A DNA stretch of 64,000 bases from Geomonas silvestris (GTDB lineage Bacteria; Desulfobacterota; Desulfuromonadia; Geobacterales; Geobacteraceae): the NCBI RefSeq assembly GCF_014193515.1, contig NZ_BLXX01000006.1:1-64000 (forward strand). The letters are read 5' to 3'. The notes under the pieces are model-generated. The model made no database searches and was not told the DNA's origin. It saw only the letters and a list, made by a program, of their open reading frames with translations. The number at the start of each line of letters is the position of its first letter. The stretch's first letter is position 1. Positions 63,191 to 64,000 of this stretch are shown piece by piece. The position numbers were made by a program, and so were the translations under genes.

Positions 63191-63206
63191 TGGCACGGTA
63201 GCTGCT
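63191..63206 (+). promoter_or_regulatory. sigma-54 promoter of nifH
   Basis: TGGCACG (63191-63197), 4 bp and CTGCT (63202-63206) fit TGGCACR-N4-TTGCW with one mismatch. The transcript would start near 63217, leaving a leader of about 250 nt. Confidence 0.75.
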
Positions 63207-63229
63207 AAGAGTAAGGCAAAACCGAATAA

Positions 63230-63275
63230 GAAATACAGCGACGTATTTCACCTCCAGGATCAAGGCAAAGGCGCC
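63230..63275 (+). promoter_or_regulatory. candidate ANTAR-type antiterminator element in the nifH leader
   Basis: The first hairpin is a perfect 7-bp stem, GAAATAC (63230-63236) with GTATTTC (63243-63249), and a six-base loop AGCGAC with A at position 1 and G at position 4, the hallmark of ANTAR-protein RNA targets. A second, weaker hairpin, GGC (63264-63266) with GCC (63273-63275), has loop AAAGGC, again A1 and G4, and overlaps the 5' arm of the terminator, so the two exclude each other. The second stem is only 3 bp. Confidence 0.6.
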
Positions 63276-63305
63276 CACCGTATTCGAAACGGAGCGCCTT
63301 TTTTC
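63268..63305 (+). terminator. intrinsic terminator in the nifH leader
   Basis: An outer stem aaggcgc (63268-63274) with gcgcctt (63294-63300) and an inner stem CCGT (63278-63281) with ACGG (63289-63292) are followed by a run of Ts broken by one C. It lies between the nifH promoter and its start codon, so nifH needs readthrough or antitermination. Confidence 0.85.
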
Positions 63306-63469
63306 TTTTAAAGGCCTCGCACAATCAAAACGAGCCCTGCACCGCGAAGTATCGAGATGGCGATCTAAGCGAAGTGGCAGGTTCGTCAGAGTGGCTGACG
63401 AAGGTGACCGAGCGGATCTGGCCTGATTGGCGGAGACGGTCAGCGGGGCGAACAAAAGGAGACGAACAC

Positions 63470-64000
63470 ATGAGACAGATCGCGATCTACGGCAAAGGCG
63501 GCATCGGCAAATCCACCACCACCCAGAACACGGTAGCAGGCCTCGCCTACATGGGCAAAAAGGTCATGATCGTCGGCTGCGACCCGAAAGCCGACTCCAC
63601 CCGCCTCATCCTGCACGCCAAGGCACAGTCCACCGTTATGGACCTGGTGCGCGAACTCGGCACCGTAGAGGACCTGGAGCTTGAGGATGTCATGAAGATC
63701 GGCTACGGCGACGTCAAGTGCGTCGAGTCCGGCGGACCGGAGCCGGGTGTCGGCTGCGCAGGCCGCGGCGTCATCACCGCCATCAACTTCCTGGAAGAAA
63801 ACGGCGCCTACACCCCGGACCTCGACTTCGTCTTCTACGACGTTCTGGGCGACGTCGTCTGCGGCGGGTTCGCCATGCCGATCCGTGAAGGCAAGGCCGA
63901 AGAGATCTACATCGTCACCTCCGGCGAGATGATGGCCATGTACGCCGCCAACAACATCGCCAAGGGCATCCTGAAGTATGCCTCCTCCGGCAAGGTCCGC
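63470..64000 (+). CDS. nifH: nitrogenase iron protein (dinitrogenase reductase), cut by window edge
   Basis: The first 177 codons of NifH are present. The P-loop is [13 protein letters not shown] (about 9-21), switch [13 protein letters not shown] (about 39-50), the ADP-ribosylation-type Arg and 4Fe-4S Cys lie in CAGRGVITA (about 98-106), and switch [20 protein letters not shown] (about 126-143) contains the second cluster Cys. All expected residues are intact. ATG 63470 follows AAAAGGAG. The 3' end and nifD/nifK lie outside the window. Confidence 0.96.

Follow-up and report, generated by a model that had tools for sequence, protein, structure and literature searches.

The dual-hexaloop ANTAR-target element was defined by Ramesh et al. 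in 2012 for EutV/eut, NasR/nasF and AmiR/ami (PMC3369931). In the same account, such elements were placed in three nitrogenase-related units of Pelobacter carbinolicus, as well as before genes for P-II, ammonium transporters and glutamate synthase (PMC3369931). Regarding the distance between the two hairpins, a 14-nt linker strongly cut induction at eutP of E. faecalis (PMC3369931), and a linker extended by 20 nt abolished the effect of EutV in vitro (PMC3369931, PMC8934654). The nifH leader analyzed here shares with these leaders two A1/G4 hexaloop hairpins, the second of which overlaps an intrinsic terminator; since such leaders were already described by Ramesh et al. in 2012, the kind of leader is a known one. 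In contrast to the eut leaders, for which linkers of 5–12 nt are given, the linker here measures 14 nt, the very length that was unfavorable at eutP, which speaks against the ANTAR reading. Further differences from the dual-hexaloop leaders are the sigma-54 promoter, the G sometimes found at position 1 of the loop, and the porin-like gene among the targets.

Antitermination of nif genes by GnfK/GnfR in Geobacter sulfurreducens was reportedly described by Ueki and Lovley in 2010; the nif terminators of this organism are said to lie behind activated promoters, and gnfR itself is said to be under the nitrogen cascade. The present system is similar in having an ANTAR regulator, nif terminators behind activated promoters, and a regulator gene that may likewise answer to nitrogen, with a sigma-54 type site before it. 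Unlike GnfR, the regulator found here carries Glu in place of the phosphoacceptor Asp and Ala in place of Thr, and its gene lies on a contig other than that of nifH, whereas gnfR of G. sulfurreducens lies beside nifH, GSU2821. The gnfR gene is GSU2822 (PMC7962754).

A second comparison was made with Rfam family P11 (RF00625), which gave 32.5 bits (E 3.9e-5) for promoter and leader combined. As this is below the gathering score of 70, the leader is not a P11 member by the Rfam rule. At related leaders, P11 matched in four of eight cases with 22–29.5 bits and E-values from 0.015 to 1.2; a whole-genome P11 search was weakly informative, as its first look missed the nifH leader and returned three weak others, the best at 19.9 bits. 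P11, which we take to be the NasT-bound leader NalA, is laid out in the same way as here, from a sigma-54 like promoter through P1 (loop AACGau) and P2 (loop AAAGGC) to a terminator, while its operon and regulator differ from those of the present locus. P11 has been tied to a Pseudomonas nitrogen assimilation operon with nirB, nirD and nasC (PMC12080996), and the NalA leader, NasT and a sigma-54 promoter are described in PMC12830290.

The window, that is, the whole stretch of 64,000 nucleotides that was analyzed, corresponds to positions C6:1-64000 within the 5.1-Mb draft genome of Geomonas silvestris. The initial annotation had read a sigma-54-type promoter, a perfect 7-bp hairpin with loop AGCGAC, a second hairpin with loop AAAGGC overlapping a terminator arm, and an intrinsic terminator before nifH, and all of them were recovered. 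The promoter site follows the sigma-54 consensus GG-N10-GC, and P1 can be read directly from the letters. Coordinates are collected in Table 1.

Table 1. Positions of the nifH leader elements and adjoining features in the window.
Feature	Position	Strand	Basis
sigma-54 type promoter site TGGCACGGTAGCTGCT of nifH	63191-63206	+	sequence, GG-N10-GC
P1 hairpin GAAATAC-AGCGAC-GTATTTC, 7 bp, hexaloop AGCGAC (A1, G4)	63230-63249	+	sequence, folding, covariation, R3 match
linker between P1 and P2, 14 nt	63250-63263	+	sequence
P2 hairpin GGC-AAAGGC-GCC, 3 bp (A1, G4)	63264-63275	+	sequence, folding, conservation
intrinsic terminator with U-rich tail	63267-63309	+	RNA folding
nifH, 5' part, ATG 63470	63470-64000	+	ORF; gene continues past window end
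nifV-like gene upstream of the leader	61923-63086	+	ORF; name read from translation
possible nifV leader remnant	61833-61885	+	sigma-54 site 61833-61848 and P2-like hairpin

The 5' arm of the terminator contains the loop and the 3' arm of P2. Its outer stem is formed by pairing of 63267-63274 with 63294-63301 and its inner stem by pairing of 63278-63281 with 63289-63292, and the U-rich tail TTTTTTCTTTT ends behind P2, at 63309. Folding energies were −4.9, −2.8 and −16.6 kcal/mol for P1, P2 and the terminator, respectively. When P2 was imposed, the best fold of 63229-63304 became worse by 9.4 kcal/mol; from this cost, P2 and the terminator are predicted to be mutually exclusive, with the terminator winning when unaided. 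The region 63209-63315 as a whole was not unusually stable (z −1.29; 25 of 200 shuffles folded equally well). A strict terminator scan of the window did not list this terminator, because its rule excludes interrupted stems and demands a loop of 3–8, and the leader terminator has an internal loop. Between the terminator and the nifH start, folding also gave a strong hairpin, TTCGTCAG-AGTGG-CTGACGAA, at 63382-63402.

Conservation was evaluated in 20 nifH leaders from 18 of the 19 genomes of the genus and from two sister genera (genus genome G226 is outside this set). The presence of P1 or P2 at nifH played no part in their selection, although the regions were chosen around model matches located mostly at nifB. 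The promoter site at the equivalent place, P1, P2 and the T-run were present in all 20; the T-run of the window and of L004 was scored in a separate 24-leader comparison. The P1-P2 linker ranged from 12 to 16 nt, with P1 counted as 7 bp. The 3-bp stem of P2, which had been named as the weak point of the initial annotation, was retained in every leader. Loss of the A1 and G4 bases in homologous leaders had been set beforehand as the observation that would speak against it; position 4 of the P1 loop was G in 20 of 20, and position 1 was A in 17 and G in the other three.

A scan with the NifH part encoded in the window, which shared 84–98% identity with the best 80 nifH loci, divided these loci, by reading, into 27 from Desulfuromonadota, 6 from Anaeromyxobacter-like genomes and 47 from others. 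Covariance models were built from the leaders, and the E-values of all three, R1, R2 and R3, are rough. R1 was derived from eight nifH leaders in which both hairpins could be seen. R3 was derived from nine leaders, none of nifH and none of this genus (L147 was excluded as a member of the same genus); some of its training leaders share genomes with tested nifH leaders but belong to other genes. Because R1 and R2 contain the window leader, their window scores are not independent, while that of R3 is. R3 matched the window leader at 31.8 bits (E 9.6e-5 in 329 kb), with the next best place in the window at 13.2 bits. At E ≤ 0.03, nine of 34 sources were matched, each at its nifH leader. Among the 47 nifH loci of other groups within the best 80, R3 gave no match below E 0.1, the best being 0.16.

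None of 500 Markov sequences had, between promoter and P2, a hexaloop stem ([A/G]NNGNN) that matched P1 in length. In 19 leaders (nifH, nifB, glnK and porin-like), P1 covariation was 0.392 compared with 0.149 after shuffling, a value reached by 0 of 500 shuffles; five pairs changed on both sides, and 90.4% of cells were paired. For nifH leaders alone (19 distinct rows), the corresponding values were 0.187 and 0.117, again with 0 of 500 shuffles. The P2 stem was kept in all 19 leaders; no variation occurred in two of the seven pairs of P1 or in any of the three pairs of P2, and P2 therefore yields no covariation evidence. These 19 leaders, like those of alignments A2 and A4, were chosen for visible P1 and P2, and the invariant bases of A2 and A4 thus partly reflect selection. 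L027 was included in A1 and not in A2; L137, L027 and L032 are absent from A3 and A4, and L026 was removed from A4 as its 7-nt loop was misaligned.

Upstream of nifV, a P2-like hairpin, GGGC-AACGGC-GCCC, was located at 61872-61885 without a U-run and scored 13.2 bits with R3. At two other loci (L029 and L005), P2 and a terminator precede nifV, and the element before nifV is perhaps a decayed leader. Farther upstream, translation reading indicated an ORF resembling NrfA-type multihaem nitrite reductase (57304-58755) and a small superoxide-reductase-like ORF with a twin-arginine-like start (58966-59448).

The same arrangement was found at other genes of this genome. In an R1 search in which 150 of 463 first-look candidates were scored, the nifB leader (C6:75555) reached 35.1 bits and the leader of a porin-like gene (about C7:21993-22040, minus strand; in L113 and L124) 31.3 bits; neither was used in training, and the runner-up after these two and the nifH leader scored 18.2 bits. 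Both were read as a sigma-54 site followed by P1, P2 and a terminator. The porin-like gene matched no Pfam family and owes its name to translation reading; its relatives elsewhere adjoin ANTAR and glnK genes (L136/L166, L210). Over 32 genomes, R1 gave 30 places, comprising seven training leaders, 13 accepted leaders (mostly of nifB, also of glnK and porin-like genes) and ten that were judged chance on account of an absent terminator or a coding look (L139-L144, L149, L153, L155, L156). Three of these ten sit in Anaeromyxobacter-like genomes. L206 was set aside on the same grounds.

Of 194 genomes sampled from the class, 107 gave a leader at E ≤ 0.01, among them 18 of 18 from the genus, 37 of 38 from the family and two of 55 from the sister family f2. 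The search scored 32 candidates per genome under strict filters, and the f2 genomes may or may not fix nitrogen, so the absences in f2 are soft. Of the 30 fetched class matches, 29 adjoin nifH, nifB or a cluster of ANTAR, porin and glnK genes, L170 being the exception; after removal of the nine R2 training leaders, the proportion was 20 of 21. Beyond the class, leaders were found in front of glnK/amtB genes (L207, L208, L212), porin-like genes adjoining ANTAR genes (L210, L214) and, by translation reading, a multihaem cytochrome gene (L213) and a glutamate-synthase-like gene (L215). A search of 33 of the 47 other diazotroph genomes gave one match, at E 0.0125 and with a coding look.

Several side observations were made in these sequences. 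Two or three leaders occur within a few kb at G035:C11:297237 and 297979 and at G272:C20:5935, 7612 and 10322; where inspected (L211, L207), they are near glnK/amtB, as if single genes of a cluster had switches of their own. In nifB leaders L134, L135, L137, L148 and L150 and in nifH leaders L021, L026, L027, L032 and L033, the first P2-like hairpin is followed by another, for the most part equipped with a terminator of its own, which raises the question of tandem attenuators. In the nifH set this additional hairpin is preceded by a CCATGG hairpin, which could also hide a short leader ORF. In L123, the downstream nif cluster includes an ORF of 918 aa that joins two nitrogenase component 1 domains (NifEN type), and a DRAT gene (5662-8418 and 10157-10948); a near-threshold match to the c-di-GMP-I-GGC riboswitch was recorded in L027 (354-432, minus strand; 53.5 bits against a gathering score of 59).

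A different picture emerged for nifH leaders across Desulfuromonadota. Among 24 such leaders with a sigma-54 site and P2, P1 was present in ten, displaced in one (L006) and absent in 13 (L002, L003, L007, L009, L011-L015 and L017-L020), all of which retain P2 and the terminator. L005, L029, L016 and L022 are outside this count, having no sigma-54 and P2 arrangement before nifH. The dual-hairpin layout of the initial annotation is present in all 20 leaders of the genus and its two sister genera, but, with P1 missing in 13 of 24, dual-hairpin control of nifH is not universal across Desulfuromonadota. By the hairpin measure, P1 could not be clearly told from chance in six of the ten leaders containing it (L010 0.042, L021 0.058, L026 0.82, L027 0.25, L032 0.27, L033 0.16), and in these six it rests on the models; the loops of L010 and L026 have 7 nt. 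Twelve of the 13 genomes with a P1-less nifH leader possess an ANTAR gene. According to identical ANTAR coordinates, six of the 13 loci belong to f2 genomes and one (L013) to f3. The genome of L013 has a full leader elsewhere, before a porin-like gene, and those of L005 and L029 have one before nifB.

The genome encodes one ANTAR protein of 191 aa (contig C7, 179174-179746; E 2.6e-20), with no second ANTAR match at E ≤ 0.001. At least one ANTAR gene was present in 25 of the 26 genomes that carry the Desulfuromonadota nifH loci among the best 80, compared with none of the six Anaeromyxobacter-like genomes, whose nifH loci in the same set are without the leader. In the class sample, an ANTAR protein was found in 175 of 194 genomes and in 54 of 55 from f2. 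Together with the position of similar leaders next to ANTAR genes (L166, L210, L214), this supports the proposal that nifH may be released from termination by an ANTAR regulator.

The nearest solved structures by sequence were Rv1626, EutV and NasR, and the predicted structure (mean pLDDT 87.9) matched Rv1626, RNA-bound EutV and AmiR. Eleven EutV residues have been reported in contact with RNA (PMC8934654), of which eight are kept: seven are identical (R140, K141, K145, K147, E158, M170, R173), and F162 is Phe for Tyr. Q166, D171 and S175 differ.

The receiver part proved to be altered. Glu53 ends strand 49-53 at the phosphoacceptor position and aligns with the Asp of Rv1626. In 19 genomes of the genus and two sister genera, this position was Glu in 20 of 21 and Asp in one, the switch Thr was replaced by Ala in 21 of 21, and Lys was retained in all. 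The acidic pair is also altered in this clade, although a one-residue alignment shift would restore one acidic residue. Eight other genera of the family were read as D, D, D, T, K in seven cases and E, D, D, T, K in one. In the tree, a branch supported at 100/98 separates the 21 sequences from the rest; two long-branched rows join beside them, which makes the deep placement unsure. The Pfam receiver model scored 25.6 on the protein against a cut-off of 30.2. Altered receivers occur also in L085, L088, L230, L086, L106, L097 and L099; L223, missed by the motif used, is not in the receiver table. The analogy with the two-component system of G. sulfurreducens, drawn by the initial annotation, consequently holds for the presence of an ANTAR regulator but not for its phosphoacceptor position, where Glu sits.

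Upstream of the ANTAR gene, a sigma-54 type site, TGGAACGCT(C/T)T(A/G)TGCT, was found in 19 of 19 genomes of the genus, where it is the only extended stretch without variation in an alignment that has otherwise diverged. An interim conclusion that this gene is not sigma-54 driven was discarded, since it came from a TGGC-only pattern that missed the site, which emerged when matches were scored with GG and GC held constant. With a threshold of 9 out of 11, such a site was detected for 39 of 52 ANTAR genes, compared with 1.45% of Markov sequences; as the genomes are related, these counts and those of the receiver are not independent events. The two neighbouring genes tested are of the HlyD and M48 peptidase types, and no histidine-kinase motif turned up when the sequences flanking 26 ANTAR genes were scanned (loci up to 3.2 kb). 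AmiR and other ANTAR proteins with unphosphorylated receivers are similar in combining a receiver, a long helix and an ANTAR domain with an altered phosphorylation site. In contrast to AmiR, the two tested neighbours include no AmiC-like partner, Glu is fixed at the phosphoacceptor position, and the gene has a sigma-54 site. The elements of the leader, their mutual exclusivity, conservation, covariation, recurrence at nitrogen genes and linkage to ANTAR genes are considered established at the level of sequence, and the nifH leader is accordingly read as a probable ANTAR-target antitermination leader (probability roughly 0.85).

Other explanations of the leader were considered alongside this one. 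The terminator might merely insulate nifH from nifV read-through or fix the fraction of transcripts terminated, with P1 and P2 as by-products binding nothing. This would agree with its location between nifV and nifH and with the persistence of P2 and the terminator without P1 in 13 of 24 leaders; in several P1-less leaders, moreover, GGCAA could pair with TTGCC past the U-run. Such an insulator is nevertheless unlikely, as the terminator is downstream of nifH's own promoter and P1, which lies outside it, shows covariation and is found again upstream of nifB, glnK and porin-like genes. The GGCAA/TTGCC pairing was rejected as the cause of the conserved GGC, which is retained where TTGCC is missing (L009, L002). 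A riboswitch or leader-peptide attenuator would account for a long 5' UTR containing a terminator, but can hardly apply here: the window holds no Rfam family above its gathering score, and P11 itself leads the sub-threshold matches within 63000-64000, the others having E-values of 0.11 or worse.

If the leader is an ANTAR target, the question becomes what its regulator reads. A canonical GnfK-GnfR phosphorelay operating despite the Glu would be in line with the D, D, D, T, K residues kept in seven of eight other genera of the family, and phosphorylation-mimicking conditions improve RNA binding by EutV (PMC3369931). The Glu at the phosphoacceptor position, the Ala for Thr in 21 of 21, the Pfam score below the cut-off and the confinement of the receiver change to one side of a 100/98 branch make this very unlikely. 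Glu is not known to serve as a phosphoacceptor in relays. The main rival leaves the leader as it is and assumes that a partner protein or small ligand, rather than the amount of regulator, acts on the degenerate receiver, as in AmiC-AmiR and NasS-NasT. The alteration of the receiver in all 21 clade members would fit such control, as would the placing of AmiR, solved with AmiC, among the best structural matches of the predicted model; NasT is held by NasS and has been reported to bind c-di-GMP (PMC12830290). On the other side, the two tested neighbours offer no obvious partner, and the sigma-54 site before the ANTAR gene already provides a nitrogen signal. Partner or ligand control is consequently regarded as plausible, though against the odds.

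Under the preferred reading, in which the amount of the ANTAR protein is the signal, nitrogen limitation would presumably activate sigma-54 RNA polymerase, transcription would start at about 63217, and P1 and then P2 would be transcribed. By default, the stronger terminator would take in the loop and 3' arm of P2 and stop transcription ahead of nifH. The ANTAR protein, however, could bind the hexaloops as a dimer, P1 and then P2, and block the terminator, so that the polymerase reaches nifH; this order of binding has been proposed for EutV (PMC8934654). For the porin-like gene and nifB, antitermination would proceed likewise. What we infer from these sequence features is that the protein binds, that polymerase reads through and which signal is involved.

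The amount of the protein is proposed as the signal because of the Glu at the phosphoacceptor position and the sigma-54 site of the ANTAR gene. A single sigma-54 signal would then give rise to the nif transcripts and also to the regulator that carries polymerase past their terminators, in a coherent feed-forward loop. That the amount rather than phosphorylation is read, making this loop phosphorylation-free, is put forward tentatively, at slightly less than even odds. The broader view, of a clade whose antiterminator has been freed from phosphorylation and acts in a feed-forward AND gate, and of relatives, mainly in f2, in which the protein and P2 have been kept and P1 has gone, is likewise given a little under an even chance. 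What appears to be new is the replacement of Asp by Glu and the loss of the switch Thr in this genus and two sister genera, with the ANTAR gene keeping its sigma-54 site. No report of an ANTAR nif regulator with a Glu receiver was found in a literature search that covered few subscription papers.

If this reading is correct, nitrogenase transcripts in these soil and sediment bacteria would be gated twice, by the promoter and then by the antiterminator, and an AND gate would hold nitrogenase back until the amount of regulator suffices. A single hexaloop has been proposed as the minimal ANTAR site (PMC8934654), and the P1-less relatives represent a natural test of that proposal. Two natural experiments are thus available, namely a Glu clade keeping its RNA targets and P1-less relatives keeping the protein and P2, and both make the dependence of ANTAR proteins on phosphorylation and on two hairpins directly testable.
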